A stretch of DNA of 34,105 bases from a virus, in the IMG/VR virus record IMGVR_UViG_3300037245_000350, positions 1 through 34,105 of that record; one strand, given 5' to 3'. The position numbers and the translations under genes are program-made. The notes under the pieces are model-generated. The model searched no databases. It had not been told where the DNA came from and worked only from the letters and a program-made list of their open reading frames with translations. Below, piece after piece: positions 6,236 to 34,105 of the stretch (position 1 is its first letter; every line of letters begins with the position of its first letter).

Positions 6236-6760
6236 ATGATAAATGCAAATGAAGGTAAAACCGCAATTTCTCCGGGAATTGCCGTAACTAATGATACCGC
6301 TTTACACACGTTGGACCTTGTTACTAAGGGCAGCGATCAGCTTAATGTGTATATCACTTGTGGTACTCACAACTCGGCTACGGAAGCTATCGACACCGTA
6401 AGCGTCTACGAAAGTGACACTGTTACACAGGCCACTAACATGGAACTGATCGCCGCACTGTCAAGCGGTACAGCAACCAGTACGTCGGCAAGTAACATCT
6501 TGCCAACTGCTGCTGTTATGGCTCTTGGCGGGGTTATTCAGGAACTCCAAATCGACTTGCGGAAACGTAAAAAGTATGTCGGTATTGCGGTTGTATCAGG
6601 CGCAGTCGCTGCTGGATGCTCTATAAGCACCCTTGCAAGACTAACCCGCAATGAGCAGTCTGCTGATTCGGCGGCTCAGAAAGACCAGGAAGATTTGGGT
6701 GCAACCAATGTAAGCGGTTGTATGCAGGTCATTACGGTCGGTACACCAGTTGTAACTTAA
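6236..6760 (+). CDS. Uncharacterised head-region protein, possibly a capsid decoration protein
   Basis: 174 aa, directly after the major capsid gene and preceded by AAAGG at 7 bases. Rich in Thr, Ala, Ser and Val, with alternating polar and hydrophobic residues, which suggests a beta-sandwich. A basic patch RKRKK lies near residue 110-114, then a Gly/Ala-rich strand, and the C-terminus is TVGTPVVT. No signal peptide or membrane segment. No family is recognised. Position immediately after the capsid gene is where decoration or cement proteins often lie (inference). A strong stem-loop follows the gene, so it may end the abundant capsid mRNA. Confidence 0.6.
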   Translation: MINANEGKTAISPGIAVTNDTALHTLDLVTKGSDQLNVYITCGTHNSATEAIDTVSVYESDTVTQATNMELIAALSSGTATSTSASNILPTAAVMALGGVIQELQIDLRKRKKYVGIAVVSGAVAAGCSISTLARLTRNEQSADSAAQKDQEDLGATNVSGCMQVITVGTPVVT

Positions 6761-23996: not shown

Positions 23997-24058
23997 AGTA
24001 TGCTCCCGACAACGAGCCGGGAGCTTTTAGATTCACGGCTGTAAGTATAAATATGGAC
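23997..24058 (-). repeat. Repeated intergenic element, copy A
   Basis: Consists of a 23-bp box at 24036-24058 (contains GTAAGTATAAATATGGAC on the + strand) and a perfect 7-bp stem-loop GCTCCCG/CGGGAGC at 24002-24024 whose left-strand loop is GCTCGTTGT. The same layout recurs at 28881-28939, with 20 of 23 box bases identical. It lies in the 146-base gap between the methyltransferase gene and the 113-aa gene. Confidence 0.7.
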
Positions 24059-24086
24059 ATCTCTGCCAGAAAGTATTTATCCGTGA

Positions 24087-25001
24087 CTAAAATAGTTTGT
24101 TTTCTTTTGCCTCAACAACTGCGTTTTTCAGGTTCTTTACGGCTTGTTTGTAGTATGATTCTTTTAACTCAATTCCTACAAAATTACGACCGCATTTTAT
24201 CGAAACATGGCCCTCTGATCCTATCCCCATAAACGGAGACAATACCGTATCGCCCTCGTTTGACCACATCTGCAAACCACGCTCGATCACTTCTAATTGC
24301 AATGGGCATATATGACGTTCGTCATTGTGATCTCGCGCAGATCTGTATTGCAATGTCTTCGATGGGTTTATATCCATCCATATAGGGCTTGCGTATCTCT
24401 GCCAAATGTCAATACTTAGATTGCCAGTGTGCTTAAATGTTTCTGATTCACCAGCGAAATACTGAAACTCTCCTGCTACTGGTTCTGGGTTAACTCCAGG
24501 CTTACGCATTGTAACTAAGTAATCAGGTATGCCCTGCCGACTCATGCAAGAATCTTTTTTGATCTGCTTGTGAAGTAATCCAAGTGCCTTTGTTCTTTGC
24601 ATGGCAACAACTGGGTTTTTCCATATACACGCCTCTGAGTGGTATATAAAGCCTTTACCCTGAAACAGCCTTATCATATCACCTCTAAAGTCTCGAATAC
24701 CTATAACGCCATCTCTTGACTTGCTAGTAGGCAAGTTCATGCAATGGAAAGAAACCAACCTGCCCGGCATAATGACGCGGAATAGTTCTTCGACAATAAA
24801 TCCGAAATGCTCTTTGAATTCATCATCGCTTTTGCAGTTTCCAAGATCACGCTCTGAATTTGAATAAGTATACAAAGATGCAAACGGCGGGGAGAATATA
24901 GAATAGCCAATTGAATCATCTGGGAATGTCGTTAATAATTCGCAACTGTCACCATGATATGCTGCAAAGTCTGCTGTTATTGTTGAGTTTAAAGTTTCCA
25001 T
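24087..25001 (-). CDS. DNA methyltransferase, beta-class amino-MTase
   Basis: 304 aa. Motif IV is SPPF at 37-40 in YSIFSPPFASLYTYS, near the N-terminus, and motif I (SPFMGIGSEGHVSIKCGRNFVGIEL) is at about 258-282, i.e. the beta-class order seen in N4-cytosine or N6-adenine MTases. The middle region with IWKNPVVAMQRTKALGLLHKQIKKDS matches a common phage MTase family. It starts 2 bases after the SNF2-helicase stop, so the two are made together. The base modified cannot be told from sequence. Phage role could be anti-restriction or replication/packaging control. Confidence 0.87.
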   Translation of the reverse strand: METLNSTITADFAAYHGDSCELLTTFPDDSIGYSIFSPPFASLYTYSNSERDLGNCKSDDEFKEHFGFIVEELFRVIMPGRLVSFHCMNLPTSKSRDGVIGIRDFRGDMIRLFQGKGFIYHSEACIWKNPVVAMQRTKALGLLHKQIKKDSCMSRQGIPDYLVTMRKPGVNPEPVAGEFQYFAGESETFKHTGNLSIDIWQRYASPIWMDINPSKTLQYRSARDHNDERHICPLQLEVIERGLQMWSNEGDTVLSPFMGIGSEGHVSIKCGRNFVGIELKESYYKQAVKNLKNAVVEAKENKLF

Positions 25002-25002
25002 T

Positions 25003-26391
25003 TTAACCTTTCATAAATGATGGTAATGACATTTTAATAGTAGGATTATATTTAGTCTGATCTCTTGTAGTTGCCTTGATATTCTTTTCGTTATAAACGT
25101 GCATGTTTTTAACCATGCCATCTGCCATCTCTTGAGCCTGCTTTTCTTTGCGTTTGATATTAGCCAGAACAGCACCCTCTAAAACAGATGTAATTATATA
25201 TGCGTCAACTTCTTTTTTTTGCCCGAATCTATATACCCGACGTAATGACTGATAGAATTTCTCATAAGAATCCGACAGCCCGGTAAATATAGTTTTACAA
25301 CAATGCTGCCAGTTCATTCCGAAACCACATATAGACGGTTTGCTTATTAGTCTTTTAACAGATCCGTCAGAGAATCCAAGCATAGAGTTTTCCTTATGGC
25401 TTATTGAATCTGAGCCTTTAACTTCAACAGCATCATTGATTAGTTTCTTAAGCATCGTGCTTTCGTCATTTCTATCACACCAAATCAGCCACGGCTCATC
25501 GCTACTGTTTGCTATTTCAGCAGCACGTTCGCATCTTTCCTTTAATGAGCTTTTTCTTGCTCGCTGGCGTTCCTGTAGAGTTTGTGCTTCCATCAAGAAT
25601 AGGTTGTTAACTGCTTTAGTATGGTCAACATCAACTGTAATTTCGTGCATATTTAACGATGGTAGAATAAAGTCCTTATCGTCATATCCAAGATCGGAAG
25701 GCTTACGCATCATTATTGCCCATGAGCATACCCACTTCCAATATTCTTGTAGTGCGTGCCCCTTAAGCCTCCACTTCTGAGTCTCGCCGCCATCGTGAAC
25801 AAAGAACATGGAAAGCATCTCGCCACGGCTCATAGCCCCCATGAACTCGGCATGATTGCCGAGCTCCATCAAGTCATTAGGTGCGGCAGTGGCAGTGCAG
25901 CATAGCCTATGAGGTATACTAGACCACTCGTCTATGAGTTGGGTTCTATACTTGCCTGTGTATGATTTAAGTATGCTTGATTCATCTAATACGATTCCTT
26001 CAAAATCACCAGGGTTAAAATTATGAAGCATCTCGTAATTTGTTATAGTAATCCCACAAGACGACTTACTACCATCCCTGGAGTAATTGGCCTCAATCCC
26101 GAACTTTAAACCCTCACGGTGCGTCTGCTGGCTTACAGCTAAAGGAGCAACTATAAGCACGTCTCCTTTTTTGCGTAGGACATTATAGGCCCATACTAAT
26201 TGCTGAGGCGTCTTGCCAAGTCCGCAATCTTCCAACAAAGACGCTCGGCCTTTTGCAAGTGCCCACCTGACAATATCCTCTTGCCAATCAAAAAGGTTAT
26301 TTTTAGCACCATCTACAACTAAATCGTCAATGTCAAATCCTGATGGTATATCGGTTAGTGCTTTATTTTTTAAAAAATCTTTATAACTCAT
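25003..26391 (-). CDS. SNF2/DEAD-type superfamily 2 helicase
   Basis: 462 aa from the ATG at 26391, chosen because AAAGGA precedes it and it fits the ATGA-like overlap with the upstream gene. Motifs: DWQEDIVRWAL (Q-motif region), Walker A DCGLGKT at 55-61, Walker B LDESS at 135-139, CTATAAPN as motif III, and QSLRRVYRFGQKKEVDAY (motif VI). This is the SNF2-like set common in phage accessory helicases. Directly followed by a DNA methyltransferase. Likely remodels DNA or clears protein; substrate unknown. Confidence 0.88.
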   Translation of the reverse strand: MSYKDFLKNKALTDIPSGFDIDDLVVDGAKNNLFDWQEDIVRWALAKGRASLLEDCGLGKTPQQLVWAYNVLRKKGDVLIVAPLAVSQQTHREGLKFGIEANYSRDGSKSSCGITITNYEMLHNFNPGDFEGIVLDESSILKSYTGKYRTQLIDEWSSIPHRLCCTATAAPNDLMELGNHAEFMGAMSRGEMLSMFFVHDGGETQKWRLKGHALQEYWKWVCSWAIMMRKPSDLGYDDKDFILPSLNMHEITVDVDHTKAVNNLFLMEAQTLQERQRARKSSLKERCERAAEIANSSDEPWLIWCDRNDESTMLKKLINDAVEVKGSDSISHKENSMLGFSDGSVKRLISKPSICGFGMNWQHCCKTIFTGLSDSYEKFYQSLRRVYRFGQKKEVDAYIITSVLEGAVLANIKRKEKQAQEMADGMVKNMHVYNEKNIKATTRDQTKYNPTIKMSLPSFMKG

Positions 26392-27188
26392 TCTATTCCT
26401 TTCCTGCATTCTTTGCATTTATATTCTTTTTTATTAGTACGCGTATTCATGCCAAACTTATGACCCTCAGCATACGCCGCACCGCATTCAATGCAATCCT
26501 TTTCTTTCGCTTCTGCCGACTCACTCAATACATCTTCCCAGTGACGGCCTGACAGCCATGCCTTGAAGTTCTTCCAAGGGGGGCGCCAAGCTAGATCGGA
26601 ATTATTACGCCACTCGATTTGCTTCTGGATCGCTGGCAATAAGAGCGGCAAGTCATTTTCCCAATCGAAATTACCCATCTGGAAGTCGGCAAGCTCTGTA
26701 ATAGATTCCCGCTTGAGTCCTGGATAAAGCAAGCAAGCAGCATTAAAAATTAAAAATTCGCTGTCTTTATCTTGCTCTTGATCCTTGTCTTGAGCTTTAT
26801 CTTTATCTTTAAGGGTATAGATACCCTTTGGATACCCTTTGGATACCCTTTCAAATAAATCGTGCTTTACAAGTAGTTTAATAACTGCTTTGTGTGGTCT
26901 GCTCCCTTCTGATAGGGTTCCGTACTGGAAATCACAGAAGCCAATAATGAAATACTTACCCACTTTCATCATCTCAATCCATTCATATCCGACTAATATT
27001 TCAAGATTTTTATTGATCTCTGGTATATCACAGCCGATAACTAATGAAGCTAATTTGTCGCTGAATTTAACAACGCCAGATATGTCGCATTTAGATAGTA
27101 GGAATAACCATAGAGCTTTGCCAGATGGGTTCAAATCAATAAACTCTGGATCGTCGACCAGTTCTGTTGTAAAGAATCGTTTAGCCAT
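26388..27188 (-). CDS. Replication initiator-like protein with internal iterons
   Basis: 266 aa. N-terminal half (1-120) resembles winged-helix phage replication organisers: AKRFFTTELVDDPEFIDLNPSGKALWLFLLSKCDISGVVKFS, then the FIIGFCDFQYG block. A KDKDKAQDKDQEQDKDSE linker (about 129-146) follows, then a helical domain with WRPPWKNFKAWLS, and a C-terminal C..C zinc ribbon (CIECGAAYAEGH, CKECRK). The gene's 113-126 codon region contains three tandem 11-bp DNA repeats, as lambda O holds its own origin. Overlaps the helicase ATG. Confidence 0.7.
   Translation of the reverse strand: MAKRFFTTELVDDPEFIDLNPSGKALWLFLLSKCDISGVVKFSDKLASLVIGCDIPEINKNLEILVGYEWIEMMKVGKYFIIGFCDFQYGTLSEGSRPHKAVIKLLVKHDLFERVSKGYPKGIYTLKDKDKAQDKDQEQDKDSEFLIFNAACLLYPGLKRESITELADFQMGNFDWENDLPLLLPAIQKQIEWRNNSDLAWRPPWKNFKAWLSGRHWEDVLSESAEAKEKDCIECGAAYAEGHKFGMNTRTNKKEYKCKECRKGIE
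26811..26852. repeat. Iteron cluster, candidate replication origin
   Basis: Three tandem 11-bp units GATACCCTTTG (26820-26830, 26831-26841, 26842-26852, the last ending C), preceded by an inverted copy AAGGGTAT (26811-26818). The inverted copy and the first unit form AAGGGTATAGATACCCTT. Eleven is not a multiple of three, so the repeats code three different peptide pieces; selection is for DNA. The side toward 26761 is strongly T/C-biased and AT-rich. It lies inside the initiator-like gene, as in lambda O. Confidence 0.7.
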
Positions 27189-27745
27189 TACTTAGCACCT
27201 TTTTTGCTATTGCAAGATTTACATAAGACTTGAAGATTACCAGGGTTATCTTCGCCGCCTTTAGACACTGGGATTACATGATCCAAAGTCAAGTCTGTAG
27301 TGGCTCCGCATGGCTTACATACCTTACCGTCCCTTGTGAATATCATTAGCCGAATATCTTTCCTTGCTGTATATCTACAAGCTTCTGCTCGGCGTCTTTC
27401 TTTGATTGCTTTGTCCGACATGAGTTGTGCAGAATGTTCTATATGGACCTTTATGTCCTGAATGATTGCCATGCTATGAATATTATAGATGTCCCAAAAT
27501 GTCTCATTTCTTAGGGATGATTCAAATAACATTGCATTCTCCGGCGAAACAATAGAATTTTCGTCGAAGTCTGCCATCCAGTAAAGGGTGTCATATTCTT
27601 CGAGATGCCCACTTCCACCATTTGCAATATCGTCCATAGCGGGTAATAAGACACTTTTCGGCACGTTGTAATTTCCATTCCTATAGTAGCAACCGCCTGT
27701 ATAGAGAAAGTCTACGATCTTACCTATTAAAACGTTATTGTCCAT
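27188..27745 (-). CDS. HNH endonuclease with N-terminal extension
   Basis: 185 aa. Residues about 125-185 are a canonical HNH domain: RLMIFTRDGKVCKPCGATTDLTLDHVIPVSKGGEDNPGNLQVLCKSCNSKKG, with CxxC, DH, N and CxxC all present. The first 120 residues (GGCYYRNGNYNVPKSVLLPAMDDIANG, MLFESSLRNETFWDIYNIHSMAIIQD) are unrecognised. AAAGGA is 5 bases before the ATG. It lies between the leader-controlled 51-aa gene and the initiator, sharing its transcript. Confidence 0.85.
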   Translation of the reverse strand: MDNNVLIGKIVDFLYTGGCYYRNGNYNVPKSVLLPAMDDIANGGSGHLEEYDTLYWMADFDENSIVSPENAMLFESSLRNETFWDIYNIHSMAIIQDIKVHIEHSAQLMSDKAIKERRRAEACRYTARKDIRLMIFTRDGKVCKPCGATTDLTLDHVIPVSKGGEDNPGNLQVLCKSCNSKKGAK

Positions 27746-27784
27746 AGCGTTCCTTTCTATGTAGTTTTATCCAGCCTTGCATGG

Positions 27785-27940
27785 TTAACTCTCTAAATCG
27801 CATATAGCGACATTCTCATAGGCGTTAGTCTGTAACTCATTCAGCAAATGAAACGAATGTAACAAGCAATCCTCTGTTTCGTTTTCTGGGGTTACAACTA
27901 ATTTCAAGTTATCGCCTGATCTGGTTATTTCAACTTTCAT
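27785..27940 (-). CDS. Small protein controlled by a leader RNA
   Basis: 51 aa. Starts MKVEITRSGDNLKLVVTPENETED and ends HLLNELQTNAYENVAICDLES. GGAG is 7 bases before the ATG at 27940. It is the first gene after a promoter, a pairing leader and a terminator (27953-28073), so its expression, with the HNH, initiator, helicase and methyltransferase genes that follow, may depend on that element. No recognised family; beta-alpha plan. Confidence 0.6.
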   Translation of the reverse strand: MKVEITRSGDNLKLVVTPENETEDCLLHSFHLLNELQTNAYENVAICDLES

Positions 27941-27952
27941 AATTTACTCCAT

Positions 27953-28004
27953 AAAAAAACCCTAAGCGCCAGAAGTCCGCTACAGACGTGGGAGCGCGAA
28001 GGGT
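27953..28004 (-). terminator. Rho-independent terminator in a leader
   Basis: Left-pointing RNA: ACCCT (28000-28004) and CGCGC/GCGC parts pair with GCGC and AGGGT (27959-27963), giving two stacked stems around a 24-base loop, followed by seven T (27953-27959). It lies immediately before the ribosome site of the 51-aa gene, so it must be read through or regulated for the downstream genes to be made from the upstream promoter. Confidence 0.75.
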
Positions 28005-28033
28005 ATAATTTGATTGTATTGGTAGCGAACTTC
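27972..28033 (-). promoter_or_regulatory. 12-bp long-range pairing in the leader (antiterminator candidate)
   Basis: GAAGTTCGCTAC (positions 28033 down to 28022) can pair with GTAGCGGACTTC (27983 down to 27972), which lies in the loop of the terminator. The one imperfect position is a G-U pair in left-pointing RNA but a C-A mismatch on the other strand, so the pairing is meant for this transcript. The order of the arms interleaves with the terminator stems; the 2-base gap to the terminator's right arm makes both together unlikely. It could act as an antiterminator or pseudoknot. Confidence 0.6.
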
Positions 28034-28045
28034 ATAGTTACTTAA

Positions 28046-28073
28046 AATATAACACATATAAACCAAATTGCAA
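28046..28073 (-). promoter_or_regulatory. Sigma70-like promoter of the replication operon
   Basis: On the left-pointing strand TTGCAA (28068-28073) is 16 bases from TATATT (28046-28051), 4 of 6 and 5 of 6 matches. The spacing and a TATATGT-containing spacer are shared with the promoter at 20837-20864. The predicted start is near 28039, giving a leader of about 87 bases up to the T-run at 27953. Confidence 0.6.
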
Positions 28074-28090
28074 GAACTAATTTCAAATTA

Positions 28091-28420
28091 TTAAAAGAAA
28101 CTTTCCTTCCCCATCCCGCCAGTCATCCACTTCTTAGGTTTTGGCTTCGGTTGGGGCTTTGGATCCGGCTTAACTGGATCCGGTTCTTTCTCCCGTGGTA
28201 GCCGGCTATGCACGGAGTATATATCCCTAGCGTCATGCTCGGTAAAGTTACGGCTATTCGCACATCGATTCACACACTGGCTACCCGGACAGCTAAGCCA
28301 GCAACGGGTTAGCATAGTCTTCTCTGTACCGCTGTAAAGGCCCTGGATATTTGCCTTGGATATTTCACGTAGGCACTGCCTGAGCTTTACGCTTTCTTGG
28401 TCTGAGGTGAAGCCGTGCAT
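28091..28420 (-). CDS. Uncharacterised protein with Pro/Lys-rich tail
   Basis: 109 aa. N-terminal region has CLREISKANIQGLYSGTE and a Cys cluster (TRCWLSCPGSQCVNRCANSRNF, about 38-59). The C-terminal third is repeated Pro-Lys (EKEPDPVKPDPKPQPKPKPKKW), an extended linker, ending in TGGMGKESFF. AAGGGAG precedes the ATG by 5 bases. Downstream lies a promoter and a leader for the next unit. Function unknown; possibly a Zn-binding module on a flexible arm. Confidence 0.6.
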   Translation of the reverse strand: MHGFTSDQESVKLRQCLREISKANIQGLYSGTEKTMLTRCWLSCPGSQCVNRCANSRNFTEHDARDIYSVHSRLPREKEPDPVKPDPKPQPKPKPKKWMTGGMGKESFF

Positions 28421-28421
28421 G

Positions 28422-28613
28422 TCAACTCCCTTTTATTCGCTTGTTGAATTTCTTTAGTAGCTCAATCCGCTGCTCCCGTGTGGCACTCAGAAAACATTCC
28501 AGCCCTATCTTGACCGGAACAGACCTTGCCCATCCGTTGTTGTCGCATTCAGTTTCGATTGATTTGCATAGCTTGGCCGGTAAAGTAACGCCCATACGTC
28601 TCTGTTTGTCCAT
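28422..28613 (-). CDS. Small ribbon-helix-helix-like DNA-binding protein
   Basis: 63 aa: MDKQRRMGVTLPAKLCKSIETECDNNGWARSVPVKIGLECFLSATREQRIELLKKF. Basic start, a short strand (RMGVTLP) and two helices are the plan of Arc/CopG repressors. Its ATG has AAGGAG near 9-10 bases upstream. A good candidate for a regulator of this arm, but no operator assignment is possible. Confidence 0.55.
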   Translation of the reverse strand: MDKQRRMGVTLPAKLCKSIETECDNNGWARSVPVKIGLECFLSATREQRIELLKKFNKRIKGS

Positions 28614-28634
28614 GCTACTGCTCCTTATTAAAGT

Positions 28635-28865
28635 TTACTTGTTTCTTTGAATGAGTCTCTTGAATGCACATTTGTCTATAGAAACATGAAAGTCAACATC
28701 AATGTACTCGGTCAGGTTATCTGCTATCTTTTCAAGCAGTGATCCCTCGCAAGCAATATCTCCTGTTAATATTTCAATGTGTTGAATTAAATCCAAGCAA
28801 TCCTGATCTGTGGATTCATTGTGATATGCCCTGTGTTTAATGCCGTCCAATTCTATATTATTCAT
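28635..28865 (-). CDS. Small acidic uncharacterised protein
   Basis: 76 aa: MNNIELDGIKHRAYHNESTDQDCLDLIQHIEILTGDIACEGSLLEKIADNLTEYIDVDFHVSIDKCAFKRLIQRNK. Acidic and helical with four Cys. CAGGAG is 7 bases before the ATG. Copy B of the repeated intergenic element (28881-28939) lies immediately before the ribosome site, so the stem-loop ends about 10 bases from it. No known family. Confidence 0.55.
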   Translation of the reverse strand: MNNIELDGIKHRAYHNESTDQDCLDLIQHIEILTGDIACEGSLLEKIADNLTEYIDVDFHVSIDKCAFKRLIQRNK

Positions 28866-28880
28866 ATCGTCTCCTGTTAA

Positions 28881-28939
28881 AGTATGCCCCCTGCAACGAG
28901 CAGGGAGCGTTAATAGCGGTTGAAAGTATAAATAAGGAC
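28881..28939 (-). repeat. Repeated intergenic element, copy B
   Basis: Layout as copy A at 23997-24058. The 23-bp box is at 28917-28939 (contains GAAAGTATAAATAAGGAC). The stem-loop is at 28886-28908, with arms GCTCCCTG and CAGGGGGC on the left strand, where one pair is G-U; the same position is C-A on the other strand, so it is meant for left-pointing RNA. Its loop is CTCGTTG. The gene start follows at 28865. Confidence 0.7.
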
Positions 28940-28949
28940 GCTGTACGCC

Positions 28950-29375
28950 CTAAGAGATATAACCCGCTTGCTTTGGTTTCTTGTTCTGACGCCAATCTTT
29001 ATCTGGAAGCGGTACATGAATACCCCCTGTTTGCGCCCAATCTACTACGTTATCTATCCATTCGTTAGTTTGTTTGACTGACAGTGAAGTCTTTGAAAGT
29101 ACGAAATGCTGGTCGCCGATCTTCTTTATAAACCACTGATTGCCCGCATGTCGCTTGCAGTCGAACTCAGCCTGCCATAACGAGCAATGGGTTTCCTTTG
29201 CGAGTAACGGGAAAACTACAGCGTGCAGGTACTTCATCTGCTGGTTGCTTATGTCCTTATCGGAATCAATTTCATTTACCTCAACAACGAAACGCTCGTA
29301 TTTCCTGCACTCATCGTGAATTGCGGGCCAATTGCTGCATGGCTGAAGATCTCTTGTCATTCCTTTAAATCTCAT
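28950..29375 (-). CDS. Possible NinB-like recombination protein
   Basis: 141 aa. The pattern DKDISNQQMKYLHAVVFPLLAKETHCSLWQAEFDCKRHAG is followed by FVLSKTSLSVKQTNEWIDNVVDWAQTGGIHVPLPDKDW, which fits the NinB/Orf type in general plan (a helical middle and conserved polar end) but not enough motif is present to be sure. It lies directly next to a DUF1364 nuclease gene, as NinB-type proteins do in lambdoid nin regions, and the recombinase genes are nearby. The ATG overlaps the upstream stop. Confidence 0.45.
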   Translation of the reverse strand: MRFKGMTRDLQPCSNWPAIHDECRKYERFVVEVNEIDSDKDISNQQMKYLHAVVFPLLAKETHCSLWQAEFDCKRHAGNQWFIKKIGDQHFVLSKTSLSVKQTNEWIDNVVDWAQTGGIHVPLPDKDWRQNKKPKQAGYIS

Positions 29376-29668
29376 AGTTTTCCTTCGTCCATCAATAGTT
29401 TCTGAGTCCTAAAAACGCCTTCCCAGAACATTATTTTCATTTGGTCGTCTGTGAATTCAGTAGCAAATCGCCGTCCATCTATTGCGTCATGGCAAGAGCT
29501 GCAACTGTGCGACCCGAACCGGTCTGGCACTTTCTGTCCCATGCCACACCGGAACAATCTTTTGCTGTTCATATGAGCCAGTACTACTGTTTCAGGATTA
29601 CCATTGCAGATACCCGGAATCATCACCTGGCACTGTCGTCCTTTCGCTTCTTTTCGTAAATCAGTCAT
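29372..29668 (-). CDS. DUF1364 nuclease-domain protein
   Basis: 98 aa. Starts MTDLRKEAKGRQCQVMIPGICNGNPETVVLAHMNSK and continues HSCSSCHDAIDGRRFATEF. The CQV...PGICNGNPET and CSSCHDAIDGR landmarks match DUF1364, an HNH-like Zn nuclease domain found in lambdoid phages. Length is normal (about 95-100). Its start overlaps the ASCH gene stop by 4 bases and its stop overlaps the next ATG by 4, so all are coupled. Confidence 0.88.
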   Translation of the reverse strand: MTDLRKEAKGRQCQVMIPGICNGNPETVVLAHMNSKRLFRCGMGQKVPDRFGSHSCSSCHDAIDGRRFATEFTDDQMKIMFWEGVFRTQKLLMDEGKL

Positions 29669-30273
29669 GGCTTATCTGTCCTCTCGAAATCGTAAACAAA
29701 ACACCAGTCGTTAAAGTCCCATGCACCCTGTCCGTAGCAATCATCCCAGAGCTTTGAGAAATGTGCTCTAAATCCATCACTACAGCAATACGACATGGCC
29801 TGTTCGAGCGTGATCCCCTCTGCCATTGCGTCATCATCGCTTATGTCCTGAATCCGATCAATCCTTACCCCTGTAACCTTAAGGAATATACGGGCAAGCT
29901 CTCGGAAGCAACCGTTGGGGACGCAGTGGCCGATTCCAATCTCTTTGATTCTTTCCGGTATTTCTATGAAATCGCTCTTTTTCCCGTCTGCTTCATAAGT
30001 GAACTGATACCTACAATCCAACGTGAAATTAGTCAGCCTTGCACGCTCTCGGATATAGAGGACGTCCCCGAGTTTGTATTTAGCGAAGTCGACAATGTAA
30101 GACTCGTCATTTGGTTGCAAGCAGCCATTGTCCATGAAATAACTTATCTCTCCGATTTCCGCAGCAAGCCTCATTTTAGCTAAAAACTTCTCAGTCATGG
30201 GCATTCTCGTTTGAGTCTTACGATCCTCAAGTACAGCCAGTACCATTTCAGGTTTTAGGTGTTTTGGTTTCAT
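29665..30273 (-). CDS. ASCH (PUA-like) domain protein
   Basis: 202 aa. RKTQTRMPM near residue 17-25, YKLGDVLYIRERARL (about 85-99), RIFLKVTGVRIDRIQDISDDDAMAEGI (about 146-172) and the helical region after it match the common phage ASCH plan, a small RNA-associated beta-barrel fold. Usually found as single-domain phage proteins of 180-220 aa. Its substrate is not known. The ATG overlaps the upstream stop by 4 bases. Confidence 0.75.
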   Translation of the reverse strand: MKPKHLKPEMVLAVLEDRKTQTRMPMTEKFLAKMRLAAEIGEISYFMDNGCLQPNDESYIVDFAKYKLGDVLYIRERARLTNFTLDCRYQFTYEADGKKSDFIEIPERIKEIGIGHCVPNGCFRELARIFLKVTGVRIDRIQDISDDDAMAEGITLEQAMSYCCSDGFRAHFSKLWDDCYGQGAWDFNDWCFVYDFERTDKP

Positions 30274-30815
30274 TTAGTACGCTCCATTCTTGCCTTGACT
30301 TTAAGCCAGTAAGCTTTTGTCGATTCCTTAAGGTATCCCTTTGGACCGCCGTTGTGAATCCTGGCAATCACCTCTCCCTGTTCCATGTCAATTGGAATGT
30401 CTAAAGACTTTTCTGCTTTCACGTAATAATAAAACGAATACCTGTACATCATATACATTGCGTCCATGATATTTACGCTGTCTTGATGTTTGTATATGCG
30501 ACGTACAGGAGTGTCATTGAGTTTGATTATCCTATTGACATCAGTGACGTAAATCCTCCTAAGCTGAAACGCGCCCAATTCGCCATTTTTACCTATGGCA
30601 TTGCAGTCGAAATTACTCTCAACTTTCCCTATAGCAATAAATAGCTCTATAAGTGAGTCGAGCGACTTGTCCCGTGTGGCTTCAAGAGCAGAGACTTCAT
30701 CCCGTGCTACCGCTTCCCCGCCCAGCCCCTGCATTGACCAAGCCCAGCCAAAGAGGATGAGGATGGCGAGTATGATTATTACGATTCTTTGTTTTGTGGT
30801 CGTCTTAGTATTCAT
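30270..30815 (-). CDS. Membrane-anchored lytic transglycosylase (endolysin candidate)
   Basis: 181 aa. N-terminal membrane segment (RIVIIILAILILFGWAWSMQG, about 10-30), then AVA/RD, a possible signal cut or a signal-anchor-release type. After residue 55 the SLT-like core: AIGKVESNFD with likely catalytic E66, GELGAFQLR (about 78-86) and ARIHNGGPKGYLKESTKAY near 150. These are the usual glutamate, GxxGxxQ and NGG landmarks of lytic transglycosylases. In a phage this could be the endolysin. It is in the early arm, far from the peptidase and lipoprotein. AAAGGA precedes the ATG. Confidence 0.78.
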   Translation of the reverse strand: MNTKTTTKQRIVIIILAILILFGWAWSMQGLGGEAVARDEVSALEATRDKSLDSLIELFIAIGKVESNFDCNAIGKNGELGAFQLRRIYVTDVNRIIKLNDTPVRRIYKHQDSVNIMDAMYMMYRYSFYYYVKAEKSLDIPIDMEQGEVIARIHNGGPKGYLKESTKAYWLKVKARMERTK

Positions 30816-30816
30816 T

Positions 30817-31035
30817 TTATAGATCCTTTAATTTCAATTCGTATACACCAGCCCCTAAGCTCTTTGCTACAATGCGCCTGAGACTCCCTTTAGTAATAAG
30901 CTCATCTTTACCTGTCAACAGTATATGCTTCCATACCTTAGTTACTACCCTGTAGGATGCAGATTCATTGTCGAAAAACACATCCCTTGCTCTCTCGGAC
31001 GCAGAAACTATGCTGTTATATTCACCTATCTTCAT
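30817..31035 (-). CDS. Small uncharacterised protein
   Basis: 72 aa: MKIGEYNSIVSASERARDVFFDNESASYRVVTKVWKHILLTGKDELITKGSLRRIVAKSLGAGVYELKLKDL. Mixed helix/strand with basic patches near 45-60. AAGGAG is 7 bases before the ATG. It sits just upstream of the transglycosylase gene in transcription order. No known family. Confidence 0.55.
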   Translation of the reverse strand: MKIGEYNSIVSASERARDVFFDNESASYRVVTKVWKHILLTGKDELITKGSLRRIVAKSLGAGVYELKLKDL

Positions 31036-31580
31036 TTTACTTTCTCCTTAGTAGGTTTAGCACAGTTCTTAGAGCAAGGCCCCGCAAATCTAAAATTGTA
31101 CGGATCTCTGCATTTAACAGGCGATCCCTTTGATTGGAATTTGCACGGCTGTAGGAATGATACCGGGTTTCTGCCGATTGTGTCCCTAAGCTGGGTGTCT
31201 TCCGTAATACCGAGGACGTCATTGAACTTTTGTAACATGGTAGACAATGCTTGGCCTTCGGTTCCATTGGATAGGTAGTCATCATGGTTGTAAGTCCACA
31301 AATCCTTGATTCTTATGGCTGCTTCTATTGCATCTGTAGCTTCCTTCAACGCCTCCTCTGCTCTCGCCAACTTCTTGTTCGCCAGTGCAAGGGCGGTTTC
31401 TTTCTCGCCGGGATCTGTGTGCGTCGCGTCTACTGTGAAAGGGTCAGGCAGTAGATCATCAACAACCGACAATAACCTCTCAACGTCGTCATTTGCCAGA
31501 GATATGCTTTCGTAGCAATGGATATTACGTTTAACCATAGCAATCAGTTCGAACCATGGCCCTCTTTTTTGTTCACTCAT
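31032..31580 (-). CDS. Uncharacterised protein with coiled-coil middle
   Basis: 182 aa from the ATG at 31580, the one with AAGGAG upstream (spacing 10); a longer reading to 31610 has no ribosome site. N-terminal helix (SEQKRGPWFELIAMVKRNIHCYES), an acidic linker, then ETALALANKKLARAEEALKEATDAIEAAIRIKDL (coiled-coil, about 67-100), and a C-terminal Cys/basic region (CRDPYNFRFAGPCSKNCAKPTKEKVK) that may be a zinc site. No family recognised. Stop overlaps the next gene's ATG by 4 bases. Confidence 0.6.
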   Translation of the reverse strand: MSEQKRGPWFELIAMVKRNIHCYESISLANDDVERLLSVVDDLLPDPFTVDATHTDPGEKETALALANKKLARAEEALKEATDAIEAAIRIKDLWTYNHDDYLSNGTEGQALSTMLQKFNDVLGITEDTQLRDTIGRNPVSFLQPCKFQSKGSPVKCRDPYNFRFAGPCSKNCAKPTKEKVK

Positions 31581-31778
31581 AATTCTTATTCTCCTTAAAG
31601 TTACCCCCAAGACAGCTAATCCTTTAATTGCCCTGGAGGTGATAGCTGGTAGAGTTACACTTCCTTTGTAAACGTTCTCAGCCGGTTAGATTAAAATACT
31701 CGACGACCAGAGAGTCGGCAAACAGCCTGACCGCCGAGTTGATGACTCACGCGAGCCATCCGGTTTGTTTTAAATAAG
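31581..31778 (-). other. 198-base noncoding leader with stem-loop
   Basis: Nothing codes here. On the left-pointing strand a hairpin ACCTCCA/TGGGGGT (31634-31640 with 31603-31609, one G-U pair) ends about 6 bases before the AAGGAG of the 182-aa gene. The G-U pair is C-A on the other strand. Further stems such as TCGGC/GCCGA (about 31710-31740) suggest a structured leader. No clear promoter; a TTGCCG-17-TATTTT pair is weak. Confidence 0.45.
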
Positions 31779-32423
31779 CTATATTACATTTTTATACAAT
31801 TGCGTGTCTTTGAATTTCCCAAGCAACCATTCGATGATACCCACAATCTTTGTTATGTCATTTGGGTAGTCCTTAGGCACTGAAACGCTGTTTATATAGC
31901 ACAGTCGCCCTATACTTTTATTATCTGGAGTGAAACCTTCTTTTGCTGGCATTTTTTTACATATTTCGTCTATTATCAATTGTTGGTCTTCTGTTGGTTT
32001 TTCAATTTTAGCCGCTTCTCTCGCAGCTGCTTTGCCGTCATCATCGTCCGAAGGGATTACACCAATGGCTTGCAGGCCAAATCTCTTAGAGTACGTAATA
32101 CCTGAACCTAAAGCAGTTGGATCGTTCAATTGCTTGCAGAATACAGGCGTATTAGAACTAAAAAACTGTGATGTTTCGGCGTGAATTAGCGATGTTATAA
32201 TAATTACTTTGTCATCCCCATTTTCAGTTCGGGATATATCAATTGCTTGTATAATCAAGATGCCCTCTGCGTTCAATGGTTTTTTGATGACTTCCATAAC
32301 CTCAACTAGGTCAGCGTACTTTCCGTAATGCCCCTCTTTGGTCTTAAGGGCTGTTTCAATATTAGGTTGCGCTTTTAAAAAGGCTTTCGCTATAGCTCCA
32401 AACTCTTTGCTTCTTTCGATCAT
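31779..32423 (-). CDS. ERF-type single-strand annealing protein
   Basis: 214 aa. GHYGKYADLVEVMEVIKKPLNAEGILIIQAID (about 27-58) and the block LGSGITYSKRFGLQAIGVIPSDDDDGKAA (about 105-133) are the ERF superfamily signature. The C-terminus is helical. It anneals complementary strands in phage recombination. Next to it, transcribed first, is the lambda-exonuclease-like gene, a typical exo-annealing pair. Separated from the next gene by a 198-base noncoding stretch. Confidence 0.9.
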   Translation of the reverse strand: MIERSKEFGAIAKAFLKAQPNIETALKTKEGHYGKYADLVEVMEVIKKPLNAEGILIIQAIDISRTENGDDKVIIITSLIHAETSQFFSSNTPVFCKQLNDPTALGSGITYSKRFGLQAIGVIPSDDDDGKAAAREAAKIEKPTEDQQLIIDEICKKMPAKEGFTPDNKSIGRLCYINSVSVPKDYPNDITKIVGIIEWLLGKFKDTQLYKNVI

Positions 32424-32434
32424 TGGTAATTCTC

Positions 32435-33058
32435 CTAAAACGGCGATTTATTTAGTCTTGTTAATTCTCTTTTCATTAGCTCTACAAAAGCATTAACTTC
32501 TTTCTCTATTTTCTTTATCATATCCTCATCTCTTTCAACGCGAATATGCCAGAATGAATGCTTTGATCTTGGGTCGAATGAAACAAAATCACACCACTTT
32601 CTCCCACTAACCCACAATTGCCCTTGAACTTGTTTAACATATGTAGCAGGGAATTTATCTTTTCTGCGGTACTTCATGTGAGTAGAAGACTTAGGGCATT
32701 TGATTTCTATCAATCCATCATCTCCAACCAACCCATCTGGAGATACTCCTACAAATTCGTTTAGCTCGATGAAACCTACCTGCTTAACTTCTAATCCAAG
32801 CTGTTCTTCGTATTCATCCCTGGCTTTGGCTTCCGTTTCTGTGCCCCACTTCATGTACTTATTGGAGTATGATGATTCTTTTTCGGCGTCTTCTATTTGG
32901 TCTAAGTCAGATAGAAGGTCATTCATTAGAGTGTCCTTTGACGCTCCTGAGCCACCGGCCATAGCATCTTTAAATCGAGACGCAGTAACTTTACCCATGC
33001 GGACAGCAGACCACTCATCGCTGCCCTGTTCCATGTCGTGATATATCGGAAACTTCAT
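32435..33058 (-). CDS. YqaJ/lambda exonuclease-like recombinase nuclease
   Basis: 207 aa. WSAVRMGKVTASRFKDAM (about 16-33), MKWGTETEAKARDEYEEQLG, VGVSPDGLVGDDGLIEIKCPKS with D108, E118 and K120 as the catalytic D-ExK, and YVKQVQGQLWVSGRKW. This is the YqaJ/lambda exo family, 5' to 3' exonuclease on double-stranded ends. It feeds strands to the ERF protein next door, 11 bases away. AAGGGA precedes the ATG. Confidence 0.92.
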   Translation of the reverse strand: MKFPIYHDMEQGSDEWSAVRMGKVTASRFKDAMAGGSGASKDTLMNDLLSDLDQIEDAEKESSYSNKYMKWGTETEAKARDEYEEQLGLEVKQVGFIELNEFVGVSPDGLVGDDGLIEIKCPKSSTHMKYRRKDKFPATYVKQVQGQLWVSGRKWCDFVSFDPRSKHSFWHIRVERDEDMIKKIEKEVNAFVELMKRELTRLNKSPF

Positions 33059-33069
33059 CTTACTATCCC

Positions 33070-33252
33070 TTATTCAAAAGTAATATTAGTTATAGATTCA
33101 ATCGTAATCCCGTCCTTTTCAAGCCCTTCAAGATTCCAGGGCAGGTCGGATTCAATGAACTGTTCAAGTTCTTCGTCCTGCACGTGCTCGCTACTGTCAT
33201 TGTCTATGGTGGCAGTGAGGGCGAAGCTGACTATTTTCTGTAATCGTCTCAT
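33070..33252 (-). CDS. Small acidic protein near the recombinase
   Basis: 60 aa: MRRLQKIVSFALTATIDNDSSEHVQDEELEQFIESDLPWNLEGLEKDGITIESITNITFE. An N-terminal strand (VSFALTATID), acidic helix and short beta end. ATG overlaps the upstream stop; GAGG is close upstream. A possible recombination accessory by position; no family. Confidence 0.5.
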   Translation of the reverse strand: MRRLQKIVSFALTATIDNDSSEHVQDEELEQFIESDLPWNLEGLEKDGITIESITNITFE

Positions 33253-33395
33253 CGCTCACCTCGCTGCGAGCATCGCCTGCATATCCAACCCTGTTCAGTC
33301 TTTTCCATTGTACAGGCAGCAAAGGTAATACTGCATTTCATACATGTACCTTCCAATGGCCTCTTGACTTTGCCTTCGTCTTTCAGGTCACTCAT
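33249..33395 (-). CDS. Small zinc-ribbon protein
   Basis: 48 aa starting at ATG 33395, chosen because AAGGAG lies 10 bases before it; the longer reading to 33440 overlaps the upstream gene. CMKCSITFAAC and CRRCSQ form C..C pairs with a short basic tail (RGER). A typical very small Zn ribbon of phage early genes. Stop overlaps the next ATG. Confidence 0.55.
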   Translation of the reverse strand: MSDLKDEGKVKRPLEGTCMKCSITFAACTMEKTEQGWICRRCSQRGER

Positions 33396-33396
33396 C

Positions 33397-33762
33397 TTAT
33401 TTGATCTCCTTAGCTTTGTCGTATACTGCTTTGGTTGCATTCTTGGCTATAACCCATTTACCGGGCGTACTGCTATCGTCGTAGAGATCGTGAAAAGTTA
33501 GCTCAATAGCACTAAACATCTCGTCAAACAACCGCTCCTTAGCCTTAAGCGCGTCGTGTTCGTTCACAGCAGTAGCGATAAAATGGCAATTGCCTTCCCA
33601 TTCCCTCAGCTCACGTTCATATCTTTCATCTTGCCCTTGATAATGAAAAGGCTTTGTCTTTAAAAAGCATATAAACCCATCTTCGTTGCGGATTCCACCT
33701 GCATTAACACCATCTGAAGCAAACCACGGCAGTTTACTGTGAGGTAATTTACTATGTTCCAT
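33397..33762 (-). CDS. Uncharacterised protein
   Basis: 121 aa. MEHSKLPHSKLPWFASDGVNAGGIRNEDGFICFL then a helical GNCHFIATAVNEHDALKAKERLFDEMFSAIELTFHDLYD and a short C-terminal helix. AAGGAG is 8 bases before the ATG. The pattern (SKLPW..., IATAVNEHDAL) recalls common phage proteins of about 100-150 aa of unknown function. A CCCC/GGGG mini-hairpin (33784-33795) precedes the ribosome site. Confidence 0.6.
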   Translation of the reverse strand: MEHSKLPHSKLPWFASDGVNAGGIRNEDGFICFLKTKPFHYQGQDERYERELREWEGNCHFIATAVNEHDALKAKERLFDEMFSAIELTFHDLYDDSSTPGKWVIAKNATKAVYDKAKEIK

Positions 33763-33795
33763 AATACATCTCCTTAAAGTTATCCCCGTGGGGGG

Positions 33796-34105
33796 CTATT
33801 TCTTTGCTTCGTTACGTAGGTGGGTTGCGTGCATCTGACGGAGTTTCATGATCGCGTCAGGGTTCTTGCTTAAGTACATATTTGTCACATGCCCGTCGTT
33901 GTTGTCATGGAATTGGATGCAATCTCCGATTAACTCTACATTAATAATCTTGCCATCATTTCTTACTAGCGTAAACTCTGTCACGTCCTCCTGTAGAGAT
34001 GTAAGGTCGTCGAAGGCCGCTTGGACGTTACCAATGCAAGTCAGTCCGACTTCATTAGGCTCGGCAAGGTCACACAAGAAAGTTGGCCCAGCGACACAAT
34101 CGGGA
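33796..34105 (-). CDS. Uncharacterised protein, cut by the window edge
   Basis: The frame stays open to the window end with PDCVAGPTFLCDLAEPNE, so the start is off the right edge; the TTG at 34077 is not convincing. Visible part (103 residues) has TFLCDLAEPNEVGLTCIGN, an acidic stretch (LTSLQEDVTEFTLVRNDGKIINVELIGDCIQF), and a C-terminal helix. No known family. Confidence 0.55.
   Translation of the reverse strand, partial: PDCVAGPTFLCDLAEPNEVGLTCIGNVQAAFDDLTSLQEDVTEFTLVRNDGKIINVELIGDCIQFHDNNDGHVTNMYLSKNPDAIMKLRQMHATHLRNEAKK

Follow-up and report, generated by a model that had tools for sequence, protein, structure and literature searches.

In our study, the leader in front of the replication operon of an uncultured phage is read, on balance, as a probable cis-acting transcription attenuator in which two helices interleave in the order A-B-A'-B'. 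The window, that is, the whole stretch of 34,105 nucleotides which was analysed, is an IMG/VR record of 34.1 kb, and the leader lies on its minus strand. As a feature of the predicted RNA, the interleaved architecture is well supported. The layout is kept with quite different letters in relatives, which argues for a real RNA switch that is absent from the RNA catalogue and whose mode of switching we infer. What the sequences themselves show is the set of elements with its order and spacing, its recurrence before replication genes and the joint replacement of both arms.

Parts of the leader and the operon behind it

All leader coordinates are on the minus strand. The promoter-like site (28046-28073) consists of TTGCAA (28073-28068), a spacer of 16 nt and TATATT (28051-28046) preceded by TG; it is weak by consensus, and TATATT lies at a similar distance in the two relatives L013 and L003. 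Arm A (GAAGTTCGCTAC, 28022-28033) is close to the predicted 5' end of the RNA, whose start is placed near 28039, and is followed by a G-free linker of 17 nt (CAATACAATCAAATTAT, 28005-28021) which includes CAATACAA. The 5' strand of the terminator stem, B (27993-28004), is composed of ACCCT (28004-28000), TC and GCGCT (27997-27993), and the 3' strand, B' (27959-27970), of GGCGC (27970-27966), TT and AGGGT (27963-27959), giving 5+5 bp which flank a 2x2 internal loop. The terminator loop begins with CCCACGTCT (27984-27992) and continues into arm A' (GTAGCGGACTTC, 27972-27983), which is joined to B' by a single T (27971). A run of seven T (27953-27959) forms the predicted 3' end of an RNA of about 87 nt. 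The A:A' helix has 12 bp with one G-U, and the two helices are fully interleaved along the leader RNA. Re-reading of the minus strand returned every coordinate of the first-pass annotation, together with its 12-bp pairing with one G-U, the partner inside the terminator loop and the seven U. The join which it had described between A' and the right arm of the terminator was also found, with a length of one base rather than two once the closing U-G pair of the inner stem is included.

The terminator (28004-27953) precedes the first gene of the operon, which starts at 27940 and encodes a 51-aa protein of unknown family (27785-27940). The genes behind it, all on the minus strand, encode an HNH endonuclease (27188-27745; PF01844, E 1.5e-13), an initiator-like or helicase-loader-like protein (26388-27188; weak match to the DnaD-like phrog_186, E 0.004), an SNF2-type DNA helicase (25003-26418; phrog_62, E 2e-58) and an N6/N4 DNA methyltransferase (24087-25001; PF01555, E 2.9e-18). 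The simple terminator scan gave no minus-strand terminator-like site between the start of the 51-aa gene at 27940 and position 24087. A possible leader ORF of 32 codons plus stop (27937-28035, minus strand) spans the entire leader including the terminator; it starts with an ATG directly adjoining arm A, and its stop codon overlaps the start codon of the 51-aa gene. Frames of this kind that stop just short of the next start also occur in L003, L117 and L139. Among the 13 members of the leader class (described below), such run-through ORFs numbered 4 against 1.3 expected in the shuffle test with ATG starts and 5 against 2.3 with ATG or GTG, which is a hint at most. In the window, L013, L003 and L117, an AUG lies within arm A, next to it or slightly upstream of it. 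Upstream of the leader, inside a 109-aa ORF, two exact copies of TGGATCCGG are present 15 bases apart (28160-28183), which make a terminator-like hairpin on the plus strand.

The A:A' score was matched in none of 5000 shuffles of the upstream and loop sequences. In a scan with the same geometry no place on the plus strand reached this score, and on the minus strand 4 of 4858 overlapping scan positions did so, presumably the leader element itself counted repeatedly. The promoter match alone is at background level (29 promoter-like sites versus 32.5 expected), and the terminator, which has a 2x2 internal loop and a long loop, was not picked up by the simple terminator scan. It is the minimum free energy structure of the 88-nt RNA (-20.1 kcal/mol, z -1.9). 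The exact arm pattern had no match in viral contigs, as is expected from the divergence of the arms. Against known phages, the leader DNA gave partial short matches and nothing more, and the region 24000-34105 had no near match.

Recurrence of the layout in related phages

Relatives were found through the helicase and methyltransferase of the window, and L013 and L003 are the two closest which have upstream DNA; for L014, the other close methyltransferase match, only 172 bases precede the methyltransferase gene on its contig. The L003 helicase is 68% and the L013 methyltransferase 76% identical to that of the window. Both leaders have a promoter-like -10, arm A, a G-poor linker, the terminator and A' before the same helicase-methyltransferase genes, and CAATACAA is present in the linker of all three loci (3/3). 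In L003 the order is TATATT, TGCGATGCAG, a G-free linker with CAATACAA, AAAGCCAGACGGAG, a loop with GGGTTTACACCC, CTGCATCGCA, one base and CTCCGTTTGGCTTTTTT. The L013 leader runs from TTGACA-16-TGTATATT through AGCCATGAAAG, a linker with CAATACAA and AACCGCAGCCGAT to a loop with a GGGA/TCCC hairpin, CTTTCATGGCT, eight bases and ATCGGTTGCGGTTTTTT. The arms of the three loci are unrelated in sequence, and within each locus they are perfect or near-perfect partners. The first-pass annotation had looked to conservation or covariation of the arms in related genomes for its support, and the layout indeed recurs with different arm sequences. In L013, a second copy of arm A (10 nt, GCCATGAAAG, 6376-6389) overlaps the ribosome-binding region of the next gene past the terminator, so that A' could pair there too, as C4 RNA does with a2b2 of P1. 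No such copy was found near the next start in the window and L003, and L049 has a 7-nt match.

A scan that used the L129 and L139 initiators as queries found two homologous leaders, L217 and L218. L129, L217 and L218 have their flanking sequence and the 3' end GAGGGCTTTTCGTTTA in common, and in each of them no other helix is as strong as the terminator stem and A:A'. Both helices are kept, though both are rewritten in L218: the arms GCATAGTGG/CCACTATGC of L129 correspond to CATACGGA/TCCGTATG plus TGGTTGGTGG/CCACCAATTG in L218, and the stem AACTTTCGGGGCGCTGG/CTAGCGTCTCGAAAGTT to ATTTGTGGGCGTT/AGCGTCCACAAGT. The arm changes were taken from per-sequence helix lists, the MAFFT alignment being out of register for L218. 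As read from this small set of sequences, the changes are covariation of both interleaved helices.

The pairing was also evaluated over 175 unique terminators with a strong stem and a loop of 14-70 nt, nearly all from helicase or methyltransferase relatives; the terminator of the window is outside this set (internal loop). The score was the best pairing of the 60 nt upstream with the terminator loop, and permuted upstream pieces and the 60 nt downstream served as controls. A score of at least 22 was reached by 18 of 175 terminators, compared to 3.9 expected from permutation and 3 with the downstream control, and a score of at least 26 by 7, compared to 0.76 and 0 (Poisson 2e-7 to 2e-5 for the excess). 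The shuffled-upstream test agrees, with 8 terminators at p<=0.0083 versus 1.5 expected, and reversal of the loop strips most of the excess (8 instead of 18 at the lower threshold, 1 instead of 7 at the higher). Qualifying terminators were found in 17 of 93 cases among helicase relatives and in 1 of 49 at unrelated phage loci (Fisher p 0.006). The summed scores upstream of the helicase are bimodal, with one group at 54-96 and the others at or below 47, and a reading by eye gave stems of 19-25 bp and two-part arms in L106, L116, L129 and L218. Most phages with a related helicase had no such element at the thresholds used, which indicates that it comes and goes. The scanner gave no clear case in six GenBank phages with related helicases, and a pattern from the promoter region of the window and L013 found no new member. 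Apart from CAATACAA in three linkers, there is no sequence similarity across the members.

The members are mostly located between genes of the same direction, a short distance before replication genes; they are followed by HTH_36 proteins (L129, L139), Phg_2220_C proteins (L138, L106) or the helicase (L013, L117). The candidates in L049 and L239 adjoin structural genes. The same architecture directly follows the gene for the terminase large subunit in L049 (11251-11342), where the stem has 22 bp and the inner hairpin is GGGA/TCCC; the design is thus not confined to replication operons. A pattern from the 3' end of the L129 group brought up no new homologue and one unrelated candidate, L239 (5100-5003, minus strand), whose arms pair perfectly over 11 bp (GTGGGAGACGA/TCGTCTCCCAC) and which lies between two tail-cluster genes. 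The strong interleaved pairing in L010 (12070-11976, minus strand), on the strand opposite the helicase, arises from repeated GGCAACG-type elements and looks like a different, repeat-rich kind of structure.

Probable attenuator model and rival readings

That the leader is transcribed and terminated, which way it switches and what triggers it are the inferred part of the attenuator model. When the RNA was cut before B', folding gave A:A' a probability of 0.99-1.00 in all 13 members, and the complete RNA favoured the terminator, a result that is partly expected because the scanner picked members for strong arms. By this prediction, A would pair with A' during synthesis, before B' exists. The order of synthesis would thus make A:A' the natural antiterminator, and a cover on arm A the terminating signal. 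As A:A' ends 1 nt upstream of B' and holds B in its loop, its formation would hinder B:B', and the polymerase would then tend toward read-through into the replication genes. If a ribosome at the adjacent AUG or another RNA, the most plausible candidates, were to cover arm A, B:B' would form, and transcription would stop at the U-run with release of the RNA of about 87 nt. A:A' interleaves with the terminator and is retained with changed sequence, and the competition between the two is predicted. The replication genes of these uncultured phages would in this manner appear to be gated by RNA structure. Since the leader class is recognisable by its pairing pattern and not by sequence, it is missed by similarity searches and by covariance models without pseudoknots. 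Its recurrence next to initiators from different families, in sequence that is otherwise unrelated, suggests that the design is kept by phages or invented anew.

A pseudoknot in which A:A' and the terminator form together is equally conceivable. By an estimate from helix lengths, both helices could be spanned by linkers of 17-25 nt, as present in the window and L003, and hardly by the A-B linker of L116, which is zero. It is possible, though doubtful, that the main product is a short trans-acting RNA folded as a stable pseudoknot of A:A' and B:B', which would offer A' either to arm A of new transcripts, leading to termination, or to the start of a downstream gene. Both ends of the predicted RNA would be paired, as it starts near arm A and ends in the terminator; the second arm A copy at the L013 ribosome-binding site repeats the plan of P1 a1b1, C4 and a2b2, and a leader that serves as sRNA and mRNA at once is already known from IsrK. 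The absence of this copy in the window and L003 speaks against such a product, as do the lack of a loop-pairing excess in the 60 nt downstream (3 versus 3.9 expected at 22 or above) and the difficulty of building the full pseudoknot with the zero linker of L116. We consider it unlikely that the members form a fast-evolving phage leader class with two disjoint interleaved helices, in which A' of the terminated RNA pairs in trans with nascent arm A and enforces termination. If true, this pairing would let the RNA control phage replication by feedback without any further component, and the diverging arm pairs would give each phage a specificity of its own. Trans-acting arms might further provide sequence-specific immunity or copy-number control similar to that of P4 CI.

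The remaining readings are far less probable. The members adjoin replication genes and their arms are inverted repeats at the DNA level too, as would be seen if the repeats were a DNA element (a replication origin or a site for the initiator beside its own gene) with incidental RNA pairing. This is very improbable, as a T-run always follows B' on its own strand, a protein would find no sequence common to the arms, and it is hard to see what the placement of A' within the loop of the terminator would mean for DNA; the count of G-U versus A-C by strand points to RNA as well, but is biased by the scanner's choice of members. Equally little weight is given to an ordinary terminator with chance upstream complementarity. 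Consensus scans rate both the promoter and the terminator of the window as weak, and many phages with the replication operon lack the element, but the shuffles, the layout shared with the nearest relatives and the strong family-wide excess are against chance. The least probable is a metabolite riboswitch with an aptamer embedded in the terminator: the members share no sequence for a binding site except CAATACAA in three linkers, although the terminator loops are unusually long with inner hairpins and the HMP-PP riboswitch is a precedent for this arrangement. The first-pass annotation had left the choice between attenuator, riboswitch and pseudoknotted RNA. Its leader, promoter-like site, terminator and competing or pseudoknotting pairing before the named genes are retained, whereas the riboswitch is disfavoured by the lack of conserved ligand-binding nucleotides.

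Comparison with known RNAs

The Rfam search of the window gave no family at the gathering score and, at a lax cut-off, weak matches alone (E 3-8), which is in line with the earlier statement that no described leader matches. The L003 and L049 leaders gave nothing above chance in Rfam, and the literature search found no description of the interleaved leader. In skipping-rope RNA (RF02924), which a 2017 survey reportedly describes, a pseudoknot is combined with a terminator. It had no match in the window at the gathering score or at E<=10, and no match in 57 records of related phages passed the family cut-off; the comparison with the window leader was made through this Rfam model.

In phage P4, CI controls the replication operon through termination, and the CI RNA is held to act on seqA of new transcripts, leading to termination. 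The C4/c4-a1b1 (P1, N15) and CI (P4) leaders (RF01695) resemble the window in being early operon leaders with a short upstream sequence (a1b1, seqA) complementary to a structured RNA downstream, as compared from the P1 annotation, complementary pieces of P4 and Rfam matches. C4/CI is a separate processed RNA past the leader terminator, whereas the complementary arm of the window sits inside the leader's own terminator loop. The second copy of the upstream arm at the downstream gene start, typical of the C4/CI plan, occurs over 10 nt in L013 and neither in the window nor in L003. The models of C4 (RF01695) and IsrK (RF01394) had no match in the window at the gathering score or at E<=10, and both match P4 and N15.

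IsrK is an operon leader of the Gifsy-1 phage in which some transcripts end at an intrinsic terminator to give a short RNA and others read through, and it has an upstream ORF that shares the sequence AUGA with the next start (PMC4825925). The stop of the possible leader ORF of the window overlaps the next start as in IsrK (Gifsy-1 and related enterobacterial prophages). The IsrK model differs: it has two hairpins and a single-stranded stretch, its terminator is short with a loop of 5 nt, and that loop has no pairing partner; moreover, IsrK precedes an antirepressor whereas the window leader precedes replication genes. The HMP-PP riboswitch (thiS motif) is a terminator-embedded aptamer in which an alternative pairing opposes the terminator (PMC6478431). 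It is similar to the window in the functional sequence within the terminator loop and in the pairing against the terminator, but its loop is well conserved and binds the ligand, whereas the loops of the leader class differ in every member. The IsrK and c4-a1b1/CI leaders are functional analogues, the nearest functional relatives among phages, and the terminator-embedded riboswitch is the nearest structural idea, minus the conserved aptamer. Given the lack of an Rfam match, the different build of the IsrK model and the lack of a conserved aptamer, we class the leader as a variant of transcription attenuators outside the described RNA families. IsrK (RF01394) was also found above the gathering cut-off upstream of C4 on the minus strand of phage P4 (L182, 8615-8692) and phage N15 (L184, 8415-8490).
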